A DNA stretch of 64,000 nt from Verrucomicrobiia bacterium (GTDB lineage Bacteria; Verrucomicrobiota; Verrucomicrobiia; Verrucomicrobiales; Akkermansiaceae): contig CANHQJ010000004.1 of assembly GCA_947462875.1 (NCBI GenBank), forward strand, positions 124,001-188,000, read 5' to 3'. A model generated the notes under the pieces. The model was given only the letters and a program-made list of their open reading frames with translations. It made no database searches and was not told where the DNA came from. This document shows, piece by piece, positions 19,083 to 51,677 of this stretch. Numbering within the stretch: position 1 is the first letter of the stretch; each line of letters starts with the position of its first letter. The position numbers and the translations under genes were made by a program.

Positions 19083-19511
19083 TCATTTCCCGCGGACCTT
19101 GCGCTTCAGGGTGCGGCAGAGTGCGGGGTTTTGGTCGAGTTCGTTGGCGAGAAGAGTGAAGGCCTTGAGGGTTTGCGCGGAAATGTGGTGCTCCATGCCC
19201 TCGACATCGCGATAGATCGTTTCCTCATCCAGTCCGAAGTGGCGGAGCAGGCGGGTGAGGACCTCGTGGCGTCTGATGATGTGCTGCGCGAGGTCGCTTC
19301 CCTTCGGGGTGAGGATCACGCCGCGGTATTTTTCATAAACCACCAGACCATCGGCGCCGAGACGCTTGAGCATGGCCGAGACACTGGCCTGTGATACGCC
19401 GAGATTGGCGGCGATGTCCACCGAACGCGCATAGCCCTTGAGGGCGATGAGGTGGAAGATCTGCTCCAGATAGTCCTGGGAAGCGATGGAGGTGGACGAC
19501 GGTTTGGGCAC
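19083..19511 (-). CDS. mntR: Manganese-responsive DtxR-family repressor MntR
   Basis: A 142-residue DtxR-family regulator, the same length as Bacillus subtilis MntR and lacking the SH3 domain of DtxR/IdeR. A winged helix-turn-helix (RSVDIAANLGVSQASVSAML) is followed by the YEKYRGVILT wing. The residues that bind manganese in BsMntR are all present: Asp13 and Glu16 (SQDYLEQ), His82 (RRHEVL) and Glu104, Glu107, His108 (DVEGMEHH). With metal bound it should repress manganese uptake. It is divergent from the metal ABC operon, with a palindrome between the two. Confidence 0.9.
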   Translation of the reverse strand: MPKPSSTSIASQDYLEQIFHLIALKGYARSVDIAANLGVSQASVSAMLKRLGADGLVVYEKYRGVILTPKGSDLAQHIIRRHEVLTRLLRHFGLDEETIYRDVEGMEHHISAQTLKAFTLLANELDQNPALCRTLKRKVRGK

Positions 19512-19574
19512 GCGGATTTCCCTACCGGATTTGCCGGAACTTTACAAGCAACTTTGAAAAAAATAGTACTTGAT

Positions 19575-19580
19575 TACAAT
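19575..19580 (+). promoter_or_regulatory. Candidate -10 of the manganese uptake operon
   Basis: TACAAT, one base from TATAAT. A TTGAAA lies upstream at 19554-19559 with a short 15-base spacer, so the -35 assignment is weak. The operator candidate begins at the very next base, covering the expected transcription start. Confidence 0.4.
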
Positions 19581-19596
19581 CTTAGTCTTGTCTAAG
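19581..19596. promoter_or_regulatory. Candidate MntR operator
   Basis: CTTAGTCTTGTCTAAG: a 16-bp inverted repeat with CTTAG/CTAAG outer arms and two mismatched positions per half nearer the centre. It lies 70 bases from mntR and 28 bases before the first gene of the divergent uptake operon, directly after a -10-like hexamer. The TTAG/CTAA arms are reminiscent of DtxR-family sites. Position and symmetry support it; no consensus for this phylum is known to me. Confidence 0.55.
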
Positions 19597-19623
19597 TTTT
19601 TGGTGTTTCCTGAAACGAACTGT

Positions 19624-20409
19624 ATGAAGAGACATTTTACCGACTTGAAACATGTGCGACGCGGCCTGGCATGGTCCGGCCTTGTCGCGCTCATCAGTGC
19701 GCAACATGCTCAGGCGCAATTGCGCGAGCTCAGTACCGATCGCCCGGATACGACGGAGAGCCCCTACACGGTGGATGCCGGACATTTCCAGATCGAGGCG
19801 GAGATCGCCTCGTGGACGCGTGACCGCGGTGACAATGAAACCGCCTTAGGCCAGATCAACCTGAAGTATGGTCTGGATGATCTCACGGACTTGCAATGGA
19901 TCACGCCCACCTATTCATGGGCCGATGGCGGCAGCGAGGGCTGGGGGAACACGCAAATCCGCCTCAAACGCAATCTCTGGGGCAACGATGCGGGCAATAC
20001 CGCGCTGGCGGTGATGCCCTATGTGGAGCTGCCCACGGGTGATGAGGACTTCGGCGCGGAGCGTGTGCAGGGTGGGGTGATCGTGCCCTTCGCGTATTCC
20101 CACGGCGAATGGGGCTTCGGCCTGCAAGGGCAGCTCGACCGCGTTTATGACAATGAGCGGGACACCTATCACTGGGAGTTCATGGGCTCCGCCACGGTCA
20201 GCCATCCGATCAGCGAGCGCTGCAATGTGTTTTGCGAATTGGTGGGCCTGTTCCGCGAGGGCCAGGCCGGCGGTTCCGAGTATTCGTTCAATACCGGCGT
20301 CACGTGGATGGTGCGGGACCTGGTGCAGTGGGATGCGGGGTTGCGTCTGGGCTTGAACGACGAGGCCCCGGACCTGATGCCGTTTTTGGGATACAGTACG
20401 AAATTCTAA
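19624..20409 (+). CDS. Outer-membrane beta-barrel, first gene of manganese uptake operon
   Basis: A 261-residue exported protein: signal peptide ending near SAQHAQA, then LSTDRPDTTESPYTVDAGHF and alternating strands with an aromatic C-terminal residue (LGYSTKF), the outer-membrane insertion signal. It belongs to the broad group of putative transporters resembling PF13557 (Phenol_MetA_deg). ATG 19624 is chosen because it supplies the signal peptide and falls after the promoter and operator; an upstream TTG would lie inside the promoter. The substrate-binding protein gene starts nine bases after its stop. The context suggests a metal-permeable outer-membrane channel; this is inference. Confidence 0.75.
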   Translation: MKRHFTDLKHVRRGLAWSGLVALISAQHAQAQLRELSTDRPDTTESPYTVDAGHFQIEAEIASWTRDRGDNETALGQINLKYGLDDLTDLQWITPTYSWADGGSEGWGNTQIRLKRNLWGNDAGNTALAVMPYVELPTGDEDFGAERVQGGVIVPFAYSHGEWGFGLQGQLDRVYDNERDTYHWEFMGSATVSHPISERCNVFCELVGLFREGQAGGSEYSFNTGVTWMVRDLVQWDAGLRLGLNDEAPDLMPFLGYSTKF

Positions 20410-20418
20410 TCAAATCCA

Positions 20419-21348
20419 ATGATGAAAAAGCGAAAATCCAGCGGAATGTGGTGGGCGGTGATCGCCGCGATGATGATGGCGGTCCTCGGTTGCAAGCCCT
20501 CGGAAAAGCCGGTGAAATCGGACAAGTTGGTGGTGGTGACGACCTTCACGATCATCGCCGATATGGCGCGGGAGGTGGCGGGGGACGCGGCGGTGGTGGA
20601 ATCGCTGATCAAGCCCGGTGCGGAAATCCACGGCTACGAGCCGACGCCGAAGGACATCGTCAGGGCGCAGCAGGCGCGGTTGATTCTCTCGAATGGCATG
20701 AATCTGGAGGCCTGGTTCGCGAAATTCTATCAACATCTCGACAAGGTGCCGAATGTGGTGGTGACCGAGGGCATCACGCCCATCGACATCAGCGGGGGAC
20801 CGTATGAGGGCAAGCCGAACCCGCATGCATGGATGTCGCCCACGATCGCGTTGACGTACGTGGATCGCATTTGCGAGGCTCTTTCCACACACGATGCCGG
20901 GAACGCCGGGGTCTATCGGAAAAATGCCGATGCCTACAAAGTCAAAATCCTGGCCGTGGATGCCAAGCTGCGCGAGACCTTGTCAAAAATTCCCGCGGAA
21001 AAACGTTGTCTCGTCACCAGCGAGGGAGCTTTCGCCTATCTGTGCAAGGACTACGGCATGCAGGCCGTCTATCTCTGGCCCATCAATGCCGATGCCCAGG
21101 GCACGCCGCAACAGGTGCAGTCGGTGATCGATCGTGTGCGTTCGCAGGGCGTGCCCGTGGTGTTTTCCGAGAGCACGGTCAGCGACAAGCCGATGCGCCA
21201 GGTCGCCCGGGAAACCGGCACGCGCTACGGCGGCGTGTTGTATGTGGATTCCCTCACGGATGCCGATGGCCCGGTGCCAAGTTACTTGCAATTGTTGCAG
21301 CATAATGCGAATACCATTGTCGCCGGCTTTCTCGATGCCCATGAATGA
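20419..21348 (+). CDS. Manganese/zinc ABC transporter substrate-binding lipoprotein
   Basis: A 309-residue cluster A-I binding protein with lipobox AVLGC (Cys25). The four metal ligands of the Mn-type proteins (PsaA/MntC) are visible: His71 (EIHGYEPTP), His136 (NPHAWMSP), Glu202 (SEGAFAYL) and Asp277 (YVDSLTD). It lacks the His-rich loop of zinc-specific ZnuA, and with mntR beside it manganese is the likely ligand. Its end overlaps the ATPase start by eight bases. Confidence 0.88.
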
Positions 21349-22240
21349 TCCCTTGCAGATCCGCCTTGATGTGGAAAACATTTCCGTGATGTATGGCAAT
21401 GGCCATGCCGCTCTGGAAGGCGCGAGTTTTTCGCTGAGCGGCGGCACCATCTGTGCGCTGGTGGGCGTGAATGGCAGCGGCAAGTCGACCTTGTTCAAGA
21501 GCATCATGGGCTTTGTGAAGCCGCGCGATGGCATGGTGAAAATCAATGGTCAACCGGTGCGCGAGGCATTGAAAAAGCACCTTGTCGCCTACGTGCCGCA
21601 AGCGGAGGAGGTGGACTGGAGTTTTCCCGTCAGTGTCCGGGATGTGGTGATGATGGGCCGCTATGGTGCGATGAATTTCCTGCGCATTCCCCGTGCGGTG
21701 GATCGCGCGGCGGTGGAGGACAGCCTGCGCCGTGTCGGCATGTGGGAGTTCCGCGACCGGCAAATCGGCGAGCTGTCCGGCGGACAGAAAAAACGCGTGT
21801 TCCTCGCCCGCGCGCTGGCGCAGGATGGTTGTCTGATTTTGTTGGATGAGCCGTTCACGGGAGTGGATGTCTCCACCGAGGATGCGATCATCGACCTCTT
21901 GCGCGAGCTGCGATCCGAGGGCTGCGTGGTTCTGGTCTCGACGCACAATCTCGGTTCCGTGCCGGAATTCTGCGATCAGGTGGTGCTGCTGAACCGCAAG
22001 GTGCTGGCCCACGGACCTACCGAGGAAATTTTCACCGAACAGAATCTCACGAGTGCCTTCGGCGGGCAGTTGCGGCATTTCCATTTCGAGCAATCGACCA
22101 TCCAGTCGCACGATGGCCGCGCGGTGAAAGTGCTCACCGACGATGAAAGGCCGCTGGTCTTCGGCAAGGACGGGCACCTGGAATACAAGAACCGCGAGGG
22201 GCGCGAGGACTTGTTGAAAAAACGCAAGGAGGAGCTGTGA
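21341..22240 (+). CDS. Metal ABC transporter ATP-binding protein
   Basis: A 299-residue ABC ATPase. Walker [13 protein letters not shown]-loop region [12 protein letters not shown], signature LSGGQKKRV, Walker B LILLDEPF and the switch His in VSTHNL are all present. A lysine-rich extension of about 45 residues follows the normal end of MntB/ZnuC-type ATPases. The start is ATG 21341 (MNDPLQIRL), overlapping the preceding gene; ATG 21335 is also in frame. It powers the two permeases downstream. Confidence 0.9.
22226..22232 (+). promoter_or_regulatory. Ribosome-binding site of first permease
   Basis: AAGGAGG inside the end of the ATPase gene, 11 bases before ATG 22244. One of the few strong Shine-Dalgarno sequences in the window. 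Confidence 0.5.
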
Positions 22241-22243
22241 GTC

Positions 22244-23101
22244 ATGGACCTGAATGACATGCTGATCCCCCTGCACTACGATTACATGATCAAGGCGATC
22301 TGGGTCTGCGCGCTGATCGGCGGAGTCTGCGGTTTGCTTTCGTCATTCGTTACGCTGAAAGGCTGGTCGATGATGGGCGATGCGTTGTCGCACGCCGTGG
22401 TGCCGGGTGTGGCTGTGGCCTACATCTTCGGCTTGCCCCTGGTGCTGGGTTCCTTTGTTTCCGGCATGCTCGCGGCCTGGGCCATGGGAGTGATCAAAAC
22501 GCGCTCCAAGCTGCGCGAGGATGCCGTTCTGGGCATTGTGTTCACCGCCTTTTTTGCGTTGGGCCTGTTGCTCATTTCGCTTTATCCCGCGCGGGTGGAT
22601 TTGAAAAGCATCGTCTTCGGCAATGTGCTGGCGATTTCCGATGGGGATGTGCGGCAGCTGCTTTTCATCAGCGGCGCCGTGTTGCTGGTGCTGGCGATGA
22701 AATGGCGCGACCTGCTGCTGTTTTGTTTCGATGCCCAACAGGCCCGTGCCATGGGCCTGCGTGTCGCGTGGATGCATGCCTTGTTGCTCATGCTCCTGAG
22801 TGCGACGGCGGTGGCGGCGCTCATCACCGTCGGCGCGTTGCTGGTGGTGGCCATGCTGATCACTCCGGGGGCCACGGCCTATCTTCTGACCGATCGTTTT
22901 TCCCGCATGCTCGGCATTTCCGCCACGATCGGCGTCGTCACGGCCGCGCTGGGAGCGTATGCGAGTTATTTTGCCAATGGCAGCACAGGCGGCTGCATCG
23001 TGACTTTGCAAACCATCGTGTTTCTGGTGTGCCTGATCGTGGCGCCCAAGCATGGCCTGTTGGCGCGGCGTCGTCGCGAACGGAGGGAGGTGGTTTCGTG
23101 A
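22244..23101 (+). CDS. Metal ABC transporter permease (first)
   Basis: A 285-residue ABC-3 family permease (ZnuB/MntC type) with about eight membrane helices. Typical blocks are LKGWSMMGDALSHAVVPG near residue 40 and LLVVAMLITPGATAYLL near residue 205. It shares the operon with the ATPase and is followed, by a four-base GTGA overlap, by a second permease of the same family. Two different permease genes are known for several Mn/Zn systems and imply a heterodimeric channel. Confidence 0.9.
   Translation: MDLNDMLIPLHYDYMIKAIWVCALIGGVCGLLSSFVTLKGWSMMGDALSHAVVPGVAVAYIFGLPLVLGSFVSGMLAAWAMGVIKTRSKLREDAVLGIVFTAFFALGLLLISLYPARVDLKSIVFGNVLAISDGDVRQLLFISGAVLLVLAMKWRDLLLFCFDAQQARAMGLRVAWMHALLLMLLSATAVAALITVGALLVVAMLITPGATAYLLTDRFSRMLGISATIGVVTAALGAYASYFANGSTGGCIVTLQTIVFLVCLIVAPKHGLLARRRRERREVVS
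23082..23090 (+). promoter_or_regulatory. Ribosome-binding site deciding the GTG start of second permease
   Basis: GGAGGGAGG ends seven bases before GTG 23098, which overlaps the previous stop. This fixes the start well downstream of the longer open frame. Confidence 0.65.
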
Positions 23102-23946
23102 ATTGGCTGGAACCGCTCGAGTATCCTTTTCTGCGCGATGCGATGATGATCGGATCGCTGATCGCGGTGATGTGCGCGGTGCTTTCCTGTTTCCTCGTGC
23201 TGCGCGGTTGGTCCCTGATGGGCGATGCCGTTTCGCACTCGCTCCTTCCCGGCATCGTGCTCGCTTACCTGGTCGGCGCGCCGCTATTGATCGGGGCCTT
23301 CCTCGCGGGCTTGCTTTGCGCGGTGGGCACGGGCTGGGTGAAAAACATCAGCCGCCTCAAGGAAGACACGGCCATGGGCGTGGTGTTCACGGGCCTTTTC
23401 GCCATCGGCCTGGTTCTGTTCAGCAAAGTCCCTTCAGATCTGCATCTCGACCATATTCTTTTCGGGAATTTGTTAGGCATCGGACCTGCGGAGATCCGCG
23501 AAGTGATGTGGGTTGCCTTCCCCGTACTGGCGGTGCTGTTGTTGAAACGCCGTGACTTTCTGCTCTTGTGCTTCGACCCCGTCCAGGCGCGTGTGACCGC
23601 CTTGCCGGTGCGTCTGTTGCATTACGGCCTGCTCGTTCTGTTGTCGCTGGCGATTGTCGTTTCGCTGAAAGCGGTGGGCATCATTCTGGTCACGGCGATG
23701 CTGATCACGCCGGGGGCGACGGCCTTTTTGTGGAGCGATCGGTTTGATCGGATGCTGTGGATCGCCAGCGCGACGGCGGTGTGTTCCACGGTGCTGGGAG
23801 TGATGATCAGTTTTCACAGCGACGCGTCCCCCGCGGCCTGCATCGTGCTGTTTCAGGCGGCGCTGTTTGCGCTGTCGTGGATGCTGGCAGGCCGGCGTGG
23901 TCATAGGCGCAGAGAAAATCCAGGTGGGAATGAGACCGGAATCTGA
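23098..23946 (+). CDS. Metal ABC transporter permease (second)
   Basis: A 282-residue ABC-3 family permease paralogous to its neighbour (LRGWSLMGDAVSHSLLPGI and LVTAMLITPGATAFLW correspond to the same blocks). The GTG start at 23098 overlaps the preceding TGA and has a strong ribosome-binding site. The protein ends with a basic tail (RRGHRRRENPGG). With the first permease it should form the transmembrane channel for manganese. Confidence 0.9.
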   Translation: MNWLEPLEYPFLRDAMMIGSLIAVMCAVLSCFLVLRGWSLMGDAVSHSLLPGIVLAYLVGAPLLIGAFLAGLLCAVGTGWVKNISRLKEDTAMGVVFTGLFAIGLVLFSKVPSDLHLDHILFGNLLGIGPAEIREVMWVAFPVLAVLLLKRRDFLLLCFDPVQARVTALPVRLLHYGLLVLLSLAIVVSLKAVGIILVTAMLITPGATAFLWSDRFDRMLWIASATAVCSTVLGVMISFHSDASPAACIVLFQAALFALSWMLAGRRGHRRRENPGGNETGI

Positions 23947-48532: not shown

Positions 48533-49309
48533 ATGAAAAAACGCACCACGATCGCCTTACTCGCTCTTTCCACTGCCGCGCTTCATGCGCAAGATGTCGA
48601 ACTCGCTCAAAAACTCGCCAATCCCATTGCTGACCTCATCAGTCTGCCAATCCAGAGCAATTTCGACTTCGGCGTTGGTCCGGGCGATGGAACGATCTGG
48701 CGCACCAACATTCAGCCAGTCGTTCCGTTCAGTTTGAATGAGGACTGGACTCTCATCTCGCGCACCATTCTTCCTGTGATCGAGCAGGAAGGTTTGGCCG
48801 CCATGGGCGACTCGCTCGATGAATCCGGACTGGGCGACATCACGCAGAGTTTTTTCTTTTCCCCGAAAAACAGCGAACTGATCTGGGGCGTGGGGCCGGC
48901 ATTCCTCGTGCCCACCGCCACCGATGAACTGTTAGGCGCGGAGCAATGGTGCGCGGGTCCGACGGCAGTGGTGCTCAAACAAGACGGTCCGTGGACCTAC
49001 GGTGCGCTGGTCAATCATTTGTGGGACTTTGCGGGTGAGGACGATCGCGATTCGGTGAATGCCACATTCTTCCAACCGTTTTTGACTTACATCACGCCTA
49101 CCAAAACGTCCTTCACGCTCAATACGGAGACGACCTATGACTGGACCAACGACCAGTGGACCGTTCCTGTGAATTTCCAAGTGGCGCAACTTTTCAAAAT
49201 CGGCGATCAGCCCATGCAGGCCTTCGCCGGCATACGCTACTACGCCGAGAAACCCAAAGACGGTCCCGAGTGGGGCCTGCGTCTGGGCCTGACTTTTTTG
49301 TTTCCTTAA
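48533..49309 (+). CDS. Outer-membrane beta-barrel transporter-like protein (first of the locus)
   Basis: A 258-residue exported protein: signal peptide TIALLALSTAALHAQ, LANPIADLISLPIQSNFDFG and then alternating strands ending GLRLGLTFLFP. It matches the putative-transporter barrels often grouped with PF13557. It follows the second sulfatase by 18 bases and is a candidate outer-membrane channel for its substrate or product. Function by context only. Confidence 0.75.
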   Translation: MKKRTTIALLALSTAALHAQDVELAQKLANPIADLISLPIQSNFDFGVGPGDGTIWRTNIQPVVPFSLNEDWTLISRTILPVIEQEGLAAMGDSLDESGLGDITQSFFFSPKNSELIWGVGPAFLVPTATDELLGAEQWCAGPTAVVLKQDGPWTYGALVNHLWDFAGEDDRDSVNATFFQPFLTYITPTKTSFTLNTETTYDWTNDQWTVPVNFQVAQLFKIGDQPMQAFAGIRYYAEKPKDGPEWGLRLGLTFLFP

Positions 49310-49349
49310 ATGGCTATCATTTCACGACTCCCACGATAAAAACGATTCA

Positions 49350-49377
49350 TTGAATGGTTGAAGTCCGACATTGTATT
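49350..49377 (+). promoter_or_regulatory. Weak candidate promoter inside the sulfatase locus
   Basis: TTGAAT (49350-49355), 16-base spacer, TGTATT (49372-49377), just upstream of the small inner-membrane protein gene. Each hexamer matches consensus at four positions, so it is a tentative internal promoter. Confidence 0.3.
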
Positions 49378-49394
49378 TGATTCATCCGATCCTC

Positions 49395-49898
49395 ATGAGT
49401 GCCAAAGAAAAATTGCAACACGAACTGAAAGCGGTAGTCCTGATCACGCTCTTTTTTGCCGCGTGGCTGGGAGTCTTTATGGGACTGAAGGTGCTCATCC
49501 TGGAAGACTACCAGATTCGTTTCGGCAGCGTCTCCGCGGTGCTGATCGGTGCCTTGATCCTCGCGAAGGTCGTGCTGATTTTGGAACATGTCTCCCTCGG
49601 TTCGTGGCTGCGGAATCGGCCGGTTCTGGTGAAGGTCATCCTGCGCACCCTCCTTTATGCGTTCGGAACATTGATCGTGATTCTGTTAGAAAAAGCTATC
49701 GAGTCGCGCCATGAGCAGGGTGGGTTCGGCCCCGCATTGATGAATGTGTTCCGGCACAAGGACATGCCTCATCTCTGGGCGAACACGATCTGCGTGACGG
49801 GTGCCTTGCTTTTCTACAACCTGCTCTCCGCCCTCAACCACCACCTCGGCACCGGCGGACTGGTCCGGATCTTCCTCTCACCGCAACAGCATGAATAA
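49395..49898 (+). CDS. Small inner-membrane protein of unknown function
   Basis: A 167-residue protein with four predicted membrane helices: LKAVVLITLFFAAWLGVFMG, SVSAVLIGALILAKVVLIL, LVKVILRTLLYAFGTLIVIL and ANTICVTGALLFYNLLSAL. I know no characterised member. ATG 49395 (MSAKEKLQHEL) fits the charged N-terminus better than the upstream start. Its last eight bases overlap the next barrel gene, so the two are translationally linked. Confidence 0.75.
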   Translation: MSAKEKLQHELKAVVLITLFFAAWLGVFMGLKVLILEDYQIRFGSVSAVLIGALILAKVVLILEHVSLGSWLRNRPVLVKVILRTLLYAFGTLIVILLEKAIESRHEQGGFGPALMNVFRHKDMPHLWANTICVTGALLFYNLLSALNHHLGTGGLVRIFLSPQQHE

Positions 49899-50826
49899 AC
49901 ACAGTTGTTTTCGTAGATGGTCCGCTGATTTATCCGGCATTTTTGCGTGGTTCATCGTTGCGCAACCCTGTCTTGCACAAGACATCGAACCGCGCCGCTG
50001 GAGCCACCTGCCGCTTGGTGGGAACTTTGGTGGTCTTGCGTATGCCTACACCGAGGGCGATATTTTTCTCAATCCGGTGCTGCGGATCGAGGACGGGGAG
50101 TTCGAGATGAACACGGCAGCCCTCAAGTATATCCACGCCTTTGAGCTGTTAGGAAAATCCGCGCGAGTCGACCTGCTTCAGATGTATCAGAGCGGTTCGT
50201 GGAGCGGATTGGTCAACGGAACTCCCGCCGCCATCGACCGCGAAGGATGGGCGGACACCACTGTTCGTTTCGCGGTGAATCTCTACGGCGCACCGCCGCT
50301 CGAGCGAGAGGAATTTATCGAATACCGCAAGGCGACGCAAACCGAGACCATCGTCGGCGCGGGCTTGGTCATGACGCTGCCCACCGGTGAGTATTTTGAG
50401 GACAAGCTCATCAACCTCGGCGCGAACCGTTACTCCTTCACTCCGCAATTCGGCGTCGTCCACACCCGCGGCAAGTGGACCATGGAGCTCTCTACCTCTG
50501 TGACATTCTTCACGGACAACGACGAGTTTTTCAACGGCAGGCAACTCGAGGAGGATCCTCTCTTCATTGGACAGGGCCATCTGATCTACAACTTCATGCC
50601 CGGTGTGTGGCTCGGTGCCAGTGCCGGCTATGGGTACGGTGGGGAATCCACGATCGATCAGGTTTCCGCAGACGACCGCAAAGGCAACCTCGGCTTTGGT
50701 TTGAGTGCGGGCATTCCTGTCAACCGCAACTTCGGATTCAAGATCTCCTACATCGGCATCCGAACGCAGGAAGAAGTCGGCTCCGACAATGACACTTTCA
50801 CCCTCTCCTGCTCACTCCAGTGGTGA
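49891..50826 (+). CDS. Outer-membrane beta-barrel transporter-like protein (second of the locus)
   Basis: A 311-residue exported barrel. Signal peptide GIFAWFIVAQPCLAQ; LPLGGNFGGLAYAYTEGDIF, MTLPTGEYFEDKLINLGANR and the aromatic terminus TLSCSLQW are typical of PF13557-like putative transporters, where a meta-cleavage-pathway link has been suggested. ATG 49891 overlaps the preceding gene; the longer frame upstream is only its shadow. Partner of the neighbouring inner-membrane protein by context. Confidence 0.8.
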   Translation: MNKHSCFRRWSADLSGIFAWFIVAQPCLAQDIEPRRWSHLPLGGNFGGLAYAYTEGDIFLNPVLRIEDGEFEMNTAALKYIHAFELLGKSARVDLLQMYQSGSWSGLVNGTPAAIDREGWADTTVRFAVNLYGAPPLEREEFIEYRKATQTETIVGAGLVMTLPTGEYFEDKLINLGANRYSFTPQFGVVHTRGKWTMELSTSVTFFTDNDEFFNGRQLEEDPLFIGQGHLIYNFMPGVWLGASAGYGYGGESTIDQVSADDRKGNLGFGLSAGIPVNRNFGFKISYIGIRTQEEVGSDNDTFTLSCSLQW

Positions 50827-50873
50827 ATCCGTAAAATTTCCCTGCGCCAGAATCACCGAGACACCTAACAAGA

Positions 50874-51677
50874 ATGATTGCTATGATGAGGCACCGCTTT
50901 CACACCGCTTGGATCTTTGTAACGACGATTCTTGTCGCCGGTCTCCATGCGCAGCAGCATGATTCCCGCCGGGAATGGTTTGAGCATTCTCATGATAACG
51001 CGTGGCGCCTGCCCTATGACACGACCTTGCTCAGCCGTCGGGTCTTGAGCGAGCTGAGTTACGAAAGCCATGACGACGATGAGAATTTCTGGAAAATCGA
51101 GAACTCGGTGCGCGGCGGCTATGCCCTCAGCGATAACCTCGCCTTTGGCGTTCAGATGATGGTTCCCGTGAGGTGGATCGACTCATCCGCCTCGGATGAA
51201 TCCGGAATCGGCGACCTTGAACTGCGAAGCGGCTTCATCGGGCGCTTCGCGAACGACCTTCGCTGGGGGGCGGGTCTCAATGCGGAGTTCGATACCGCGA
51301 CGGATTCCGCCCTCGGCGGCAACGCGCTGATTTTGCGACCAACCATGGCGCTTCGCTGGGATGCCAACGATTGGCTCAATCTGGGGGTCAACGTCGAATA
51401 CACCTTCACACCGATGGAAGAGCGCGATGACGACGTCAGTGCTCTCGAACTGAAATTCCCCGTCGTATTCAGGCTCAGCGACAGTTGGTCCGCAGCGGCC
51501 ACCTACAAGCCGAGGTGGAATTTTCTGAATGAGTCTGACCGCCACCGTCTTGAACTCGGAGTTACCCAAGTGTGGGGCCCGGAGAATCAATTCGCGCTGT
51601 CTTTCAGACTTGAAGTCCCGTTAACATCTGAAAGTATGGACTACAAGCTTGTTGCTGGATTCGCCTGGCACTTTTAA
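50874..51677 (+). CDS. Outer-membrane beta-barrel protein (third of the locus)
   Basis: A 267-residue exported protein: signal peptide TAWIFVTTILVAGLHAQ, then strand-rich sequence (GGYALSDNLAFGVQMMVPVR, GDLELRSGFIGRF) ending in KLVAGFAWHF with a terminal Phe, the barrel-assembly signal. Also PF13557-like. It may start at ATG 50874 or at 50883. Third barrel of the same broad fold in four kilobases, but the three differ clearly in sequence. Confidence 0.75.
   Translation: MIAMMRHRFHTAWIFVTTILVAGLHAQQHDSRREWFEHSHDNAWRLPYDTTLLSRRVLSELSYESHDDDENFWKIENSVRGGYALSDNLAFGVQMMVPVRWIDSSASDESGIGDLELRSGFIGRFANDLRWGAGLNAEFDTATDSALGGNALILRPTMALRWDANDWLNLGVNVEYTFTPMEERDDDVSALELKFPVVFRLSDSWSAAATYKPRWNFLNESDRHRLELGVTQVWGPENQFALSFRLEVPLTSESMDYKLVAGFAWHF

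Follow-up and report, generated by a model that had tools for sequence, protein, structure and literature searches.

The passage of Mn2+ across the outer membrane has been little studied. A review names only MnoP, OmpU, and the TonB receptor MnoT as routes (PMC9334652, accessible text), and MnoP of Bradyrhizobium corresponds to blr0095 and is distant from RopA porins, as stated in the available part of PMC6011978. The channels of the PF13557/COG4313 family are, according to the accessible sections of PMC4493636, channels for hydrophobic molecules, one of which, Pput2725, is judged unlikely to serve hydrophilic molecules; in the same sections manganese is unmentioned and the word “metal” appears once, in the crystallographic methods. 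The literature on PF13557 (Phenol_MetA_deg) and COG4313 within our coverage, to which subscription papers are mostly external, yielded no metal link for this barrel family, and no outer-membrane metal route of Verrucomicrobiota or Planctomycetota was found described in the literature searched. Since COG4313 channels have been described as carriers of hydrophobic molecules, a metal-linked clade within them represents a new functional reading.

Here, we describe a locus in a 64,000-nucleotide stretch of DNA from a Verrucomicrobiia bacterium (hereafter, the window) in which such a barrel gene opens an operon for a metal ABC importer, divergent from mntR. We consider it likely that this is an envelope-spanning manganese uptake operon under a single MntR switch, with the barrel admitting divalent cations.

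Locus architecture and regulator

The operon has the gene order barrel, substrate-binding protein (SBP), ATPase, permease, permease (19624-23946, forward strand), and an intergenic gap of 112 nt separates it from mntR (Table 1). A spacer of 9 nt separates the barrel stop codon from the SBP start codon, and the downstream genes overlap or almost touch. In addition to its lipobox, a SEGAF segment is visible in the SBP sequence; a Glu in such a binding protein is a ligand of the Mn/Fe type. The best solved matches of the SBP are YfeA (5uxs; E 2.4e-112) and MntC (4irm; E 3.6e-100), which places the importer with the Mn/Fe type of SitABCD/YfeABCD. With a Glu-type SBP, an ATPase, and two ABC-3 permeases in one operon, it is, as judged from sequence, a SitABCD/YfeABCD importer.

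Table 1. Features of the mntR-barrel-importer locus, in window coordinates
Feature	Position	Strand	Evidence
mntR, DtxR-family manganese repressor, 142 aa	19083-19511	-	PF01325 and PF02742 above cut-off
Candidate promoter block TTTACA-N17-TAGTAC	19541-19569		kept in most of 8 aligned species
MntR operator (predicted) CTTAGTCTTGTCTAAG, core TTAGN6CTAA	19581-19596		conserved position in congeners
PF13557/COG4313 outer-membrane barrel, 261 aa	19624-20409	+	PF13557, E 3.6e-21
Mn/Fe-type substrate-binding lipoprotein (SitA/YfeA/MntC type)	20419-21348	+	PF01297, E 5.4e-84; lipobox LGC
ABC ATPase	21341-22240	+	best NCBIfam NF011630 (manganese/iron ABC ATPase), 388.6 bits, cut-off 393
ABC-3 permease 1	22244-23101	+	PF00950, E 7.4e-82
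ABC-3 permease 2	23098-23946	+	PF00950, E 6e-85

By its sequence, the regulator is a member of the DtxR family closest to MntR. Its closest solved structure is B. subtilis MntR (1on1; E 3e-31), and the residues D8, E11, H77, E99, E102, and H103, which we take to be the Mn ligand positions of B. subtilis MntR, are identical in 6 of 6 cases. The NCBIfam MntR models score slightly below their cut-offs (136.8 versus 138 bits and 137.6 versus 153 bits), and mntR is the only PF02742 gene detected in the genome. An earlier reading of the same DNA from its letters alone (here, the sequence-only reading) had proposed an mntR gene beside a manganese operon that opens with a barrel gene. Both proposals hold up, the former through the PF01325/PF02742 domains, the 1on1 match, and the six Mn ligands kept, and the latter through the PF13557 match, the 12-strand model described below, and the Mn-type ABC genes. 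The genome also encodes an Nramp gene, the locus of which lacks TTAGN6CTAA in the 4 kb searched. A search for a Mn riboswitch returned no Rfam family at gathering score anywhere in the window.

A conserved operator candidate in the divergent gap

The 16-mer CTTAGTCTTGTCTAAG is an imperfect palindrome, with 6 of 8 pairs complementary, located in the divergent gap 69 nt from the mntR start. The window contains a single copy when up to three mismatches are allowed, versus 0.08 expected from shuffling. The looser TTAGNCNNGNCTAA has 2 forward matches in the 3.95-Mb genome versus 6 for a reversed control pattern and is thus unremarkable within a single genome, so that the case for an operator is one of conservation. 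At the equivalent spot in the mntR-SBP gap, TTAGN6CTAA is present in 7/7 congeners holding the operon, and TTAG and CTAA are invariant across the eight aligned species. Within a set of 111 loci, 72 gave an mntR match; the motif precedes this gene by no more than 250 nt in 41 of the 72, with 3 matches in the other 581,384 nt. These two counts bear out the sequence-only proposal of an MntR operator candidate between mntR and the operon, and CTTAGTCTTGTCTAAG is, on comparative grounds, well supported as a conserved operator and predicted MntR target. TTAGN6CTAA can serve as a predictive MntR-type motif for Verrucomicrobiota and Planctomycetota.

The same motif accompanies the barrel. Among the best 80 of 234 barrel relatives, 34 have it in the 350 nt that precede the barrel match. 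A total of 18 sites are found elsewhere in the 904,229 nt of these 80 loci, 10 of them between barrel and SBP, just after the barrel, and 7 further sites are located 0.9 to 1.6 kb before the barrel, at the start of an SBP or Nramp gene. Ten barrel-first operons of the window type have no detected adjacent mntR (L076-L083, L085, and L087); nine of these ten carry the site ahead of the barrel gene, and a site in the barrel-SBP gap is likewise present in 9/10. No TTAGN6CTAA is found in L144, the eleventh locus without an adjacent mntR. The variant GTAGN6CTAC precedes 7 of the 80 barrels (again, the best 80 of 234 relatives) and accompanies more distant DtxR regulators in other locus sets. Eight barrel loci have a TTAG- or GTAG-type site despite no importer nearby (L096, L114, L116, L122, L139, L145, L151, and L155).

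Two operator-type sites approximately 48 bp apart are seen in many relatives, possibly one for each divergent promoter. Paired MntR-type sites with a constant start-to-start distance of 48 bp are found in the mntR-barrel gaps of eight loci (L106, L107, L108, L121, L123, L128, L136, and L142).

As for promoters, the sequence-only reading had placed the 16-mer right after a TACAAT -10 element. The hexamer is indeed present directly before the 16-mer (19575-19580), but a -10 role was rejected: a promoter scan of positions 19480-19680 returned no sigma-70 pair and no -35 partner for TACAAT, and the hexamer is not conserved across the eight species. A candidate promoter, for mntR or the operon, is TTTACA-N17-TAGTAC, which takes a TTGACA version in several relatives and scores below the consensus threshold of the promoter scan.

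The other genomic match to TTAGNCNNGNCTAA (C9:43959; L075:1501-1514) falls in the tail of one ORF and ahead of the next, which by eye resemble HigB and HigA, respectively. A wider MntR regulon was considered and rejected, this sole other match adjoining a putative toxin-antitoxin pair and being probably due to chance.

Fold and sequence of the barrel

PF13557 is the sole Pfam match of the barrel protein (76.8 bits; cut-off 22). Direct reading of the sequence places a signal peptide at approximately residues 1 to 31, ending in AQA, and a Phe at the C terminus; the N-terminal segment is LRELSTDRPDTTESPYTVDAGH. The AlphaFold2 model, built from a 65-sequence alignment, has 12 strands and a mean pLDDT of 90.6. 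Its fold matches FapF (Z 23.4; rmsd 2.5 over 220 residues; 16% identity) and the COG4313 channel 4rl8 (Z 22.7; rmsd 2.3 over 217 residues; 15% identity), with the porins KdgM and NanC ranking after both, and in the superposition of the model residues 43 to 54 align to the luminal N terminus of 4rl8. When the profile of the barrel alignment was compared with PDB sequences, no significant match was obtained (best, FapF; E 0.092), and the structural link is therefore one of fold alone.

Across the 65 barrel sequences, 19 columns are invariant, including D39, R40, P41, D42, T44, E45, and S46 of the N-terminal segment. Dividing strand residues by parity into inward and outward positions, we observe 900 D/E versus 462 K/R among the predicted inward residues of the 65 sequences, and the predicted inside is polar. 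The clade has a median charge excess of 8.6 per 100 residues (65 rows), compared with 5.0 in 13 control barrels, although this contrast in acidity is weak because the control ORFs are partial. A polar and acidic lumen of this predicted kind would make uptake of hydrophobic molecules by lateral diffusion less likely.

Metal importers in the neighborhood of the barrel clade

In a first survey, the barrel is encoded by 24 of 57 relatives, counting the window genome. In 22 of the 23 barrel genomes other than that of the window, the 3- to 4-kb barrel locus also contains a gene of a metal ABC system or a relative of mntR, and the L025 locus (28% identity) contains neither. For a second survey the best 80 of 234 relatives were kept; several genomes are common to both surveys, and the counts are not summed. 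The neighbors of these barrel relatives were searched for importers, DtxR, multicopper oxidase, and RND genes. An importer gene lies at most 4 kb from the barrel in 65 of the best 80 of 234 relatives (ABC, 59; Nramp, 2; ZIP, 4), so that barrels of the clade accompany three unrelated importer families. The 59 ABC binding proteins comprise 31 of the Glu type, 25 of the His type (TroA/YtgA-like), and 3 unclear ones. Three further loci of the 80 have a DtxR gene without an importer. Altogether, an importer, a free-standing DtxR, or an operator is present at 74/80 barrel loci (best 80 of 234), and six show no metal link (L104, L110, L127, L132, L141, and L147), with the sequence of L127 stopping 164 nt past the barrel.

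Free-standing DtxR genes are present at 39 of the 80 loci, a count from which weak DtxR matches on permease ORFs were excluded (L090, L112, L117, L133, L143, and L154). The ABC-3 permeases of these six loci match the DtxR profile at E 1e-7 to 2e-9 and presumably resemble permease-repressor fusions, as in Chlamydia YtgCR. There is some redundancy in the set: the L092 and L093 barrels are near-identical, L121 and L123 have equal gene layout and sites, and L008 and L042 are the same place in G037.

By comparison, 13 PF13557 barrels outside the clade, drawn from the same relatives and the window genome, show 0 importers, 0 DtxR genes, 0 DRPDxTE, and 0 TTAGN6CTAA in loci of 3.4 to 3.7 kb. The concern, raised in the sequence-only reading, that such barrels might usually be found away from metal transporters is thus answered by 65/80 near an importer versus 0/13 controls. 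On the basis of gene neighborhoods, the barrel genuinely belongs to metal-uptake operons well outside this genome.

Three barrel-like ORFs are also located in the window at 48533-51677 (48533-49309, 49801-50826, and 50874-51677) and have no metal neighbors; ORF 49801-50826 is the second PF13557 gene of the window (E 8e-19). In Planctomycetota, a cluster at L148:148-4102, and similarly L126 and L146, combines a DtxR regulator, a multicopper oxidase, the barrel, and a ZIP transporter, and L113 contains barrel and ZIP alone.

Beyond these two phyla the company of the clade barrel varies. Five of nine plasmid-borne matches were examined. CusA/CzcA pumps lie downstream of the barrel on Hymenobacter plasmids (L188 and L189), an RND gene is next to it in a Chloroflexi MAG (L153), and a cation transporter is near it in Sphingobium; a Calothrix plasmid and a Methylobacterium plasmid have no importer beside it. 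The CusA/CzcA neighbors outside Verrucomicrobiota and Planctomycetota would be compatible with export or with a broader function, and given the efflux-pump and importer-free contexts the clade is best termed metal-linked, with import as the majority context. The sequence-only idea of a manganese-dedicated barrel therefore fares differently at the two levels: it agrees with the Mn-type ABC genes here, but not with the clade, which also occurs with His-type ABC, Nramp, ZIP, and CusA/CzcA efflux. We lean toward regarding the DRPDxTE-marked COG4313 clade as a transition-metal outer-membrane gate that has several times come to work with importers of the ABC, Nramp, and ZIP families and under DtxR/MntR-type operators, chiefly in Verrucomicrobiota and Planctomycetota.

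History of the barrel in the genus

The barrel is missing from all nine congeners searched, seven of which hold a SitA-type SBP. Of the 17 relatives with a SitA-type SBP (E ≤ 1e-50), eight have the barrel in the operon (G000, G015, G036, G041, G045, G048, G051, and G054) and nine have no barrel, including every one of the seven SBP-holding congeners; the barrel is therefore accessory and not essential to the ABC importer. In both the SBP tree and the mntR tree, the window species is nested among the barrel-less congeners. A quick tree of the barrels places its barrel with Glu-type ABC barrels from other genera (13 rows; SH-aLRT 95). Gain of the barrel by one insertion downstream of an MntR promoter already in place would be a simpler account than approximately six losses. 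As far as the sequences indicate, the barrel seems to be a late addition behind an older MntR promoter in this genus.

Proposed uptake route and alternative explanations

The proposed route builds on the observed gene order, MntR ligands, operator conservation, barrel model, and association of the clade with importers. With enough Mn2+, metal-loaded MntR would bind CTTAGTCTTGTCTAAG and keep the divergent operon from being transcribed, and it would probably also repress mntR. When Mn2+ drops, the site would be vacated, and the presumably co-transcribed genes would yield the 12-strand barrel together with the SitABCD/YfeABCD-type ABC importer. Divalent cations could then reach the periplasm via an acidic, polar lumen, presumably lined by the predicted inward residues and narrowed by the conserved N-terminal segment DRPDTTES. 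There the binding lipoprotein would take Mn2+, and the ABC pump would move it inward. The barrel is most likely the outer-membrane entry through which Mn2+ would pass in this operon. Speaking against the route are the hydrophobic substrates ascribed to characterized COG4313 channels, the SitA-type importers that do without a barrel, the six clade loci devoid of a metal link, the efflux-pump neighbors outside the two phyla, and the Nramp gene whose locus lacks TTAGN6CTAA.

The same barrel could act as a small general cation/solute porin that is co-regulated with metal uptake and, without being Mn selective, raises divalent-metal permeability. We consider this plausible, yet less probable than not. 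It would account for a clade found near 31 Glu-type ABC, 25 His-type ABC, 2 Nramp, and 4 ZIP importers (65 loci) and for a predicted acidic lumen, read as a generic cation preference. However, the long conserved N-terminal segment, the 12 strands, and the 19 residues invariant in 65 sequences exceed the needs of an unselective pore, and the best-known relative is, in the available text of PMC4493636, almost shut by its own N terminus. Retention of an ancestral COG4313 role, in which a hydrophobic or chelated substrate such as a metallophore-metal complex delivers the metal, appears unlikely to us. The COG4313 channels TcpY, SphA, and Pput2725 are tied to hydrophobic molecules in the accessible part of PMC4493636, and the modeled 12-strand fold is common to the barrel and 4rl8; the predicted inward positions, however, are polar and rich in D/E, and no metallophore gene is recognized among the genes of the window operon.

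Two further alternatives concern the locus rather than the pore. That the barrel is a hitchhiker, an unrelated outer-membrane gene present by chance in the operon of this species, would agree with its absence from the operon in 7/7 congeners that have one and with the placement of the species among barrel-less ones in the SBP and mntR trees. Since the barrel-first order recurs in many other genera, each with an MntR-type site, and 65/80 clade barrels are importer linked versus 0/13 control barrels, we regard it as very improbable. Least credible of all is that the 16-mer serves mntR autoregulation only and leaves the operon uncontrolled: the site does lie in the divergent gap, 69 nt from the mntR start, but barrel-first operons with no detected adjacent mntR carry such a site ahead of the barrel, with another preceding the SBP.

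If the route of metal entry through the barrel is true, the clade would form the outer-membrane part of a route dedicated to metals in Verrucomicrobiota and Planctomycetota, and part of a widespread channel family so far tied to hydrophobic molecules would gain a metal role. The operon offers a testable candidate for Mn2+ passage across the outer membrane, with regulator and operator at hand.

Comparison with known systems

The barrel resembles the COG4313 channels (Pput2725 4rl8, SphA, and TcpY) in its PF13557 domain, its 12 modeled strands, and an N-terminal segment that in the model aligns to the luminal N terminus of 4rl8, and differs from them in its acidic DRPD-TES segment, predicted MntR-type control, and metal importer neighbors. 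FapF, the amyloid secretion channel of Pseudomonas, is the nearest in fold, but fold alone shows no function, and no amyloid genes are recognized in the window operon. MnoP is regulated by a Fur-family protein; the window barrel, with PF13557 as its sole Pfam match and predicted control by MntR of the DtxR family, is by description set apart from it. As a channel of the outer membrane on which Mn uptake depends (PMC9334652, accessible text), MnoP would nevertheless be alike in function if our reading is right. A Stenotrophomonas module likewise couples an MntR box and an outer-membrane protein to Mn homeostasis but, in the available part of its description, consists of a TonB-dependent receptor and a thioredoxin-fold protein, with no 12-strand COG4313 barrel or ABC operon (PMC13217887). 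Finally, the importer itself is similar to SitABCD, YfeABCD, and MntABC, with an SBP near YfeA and MntC, an ATPase near NF011630, and two ABC-3 permeases, whereas the window operon, unlike these systems, starts with an outer-membrane barrel gene.
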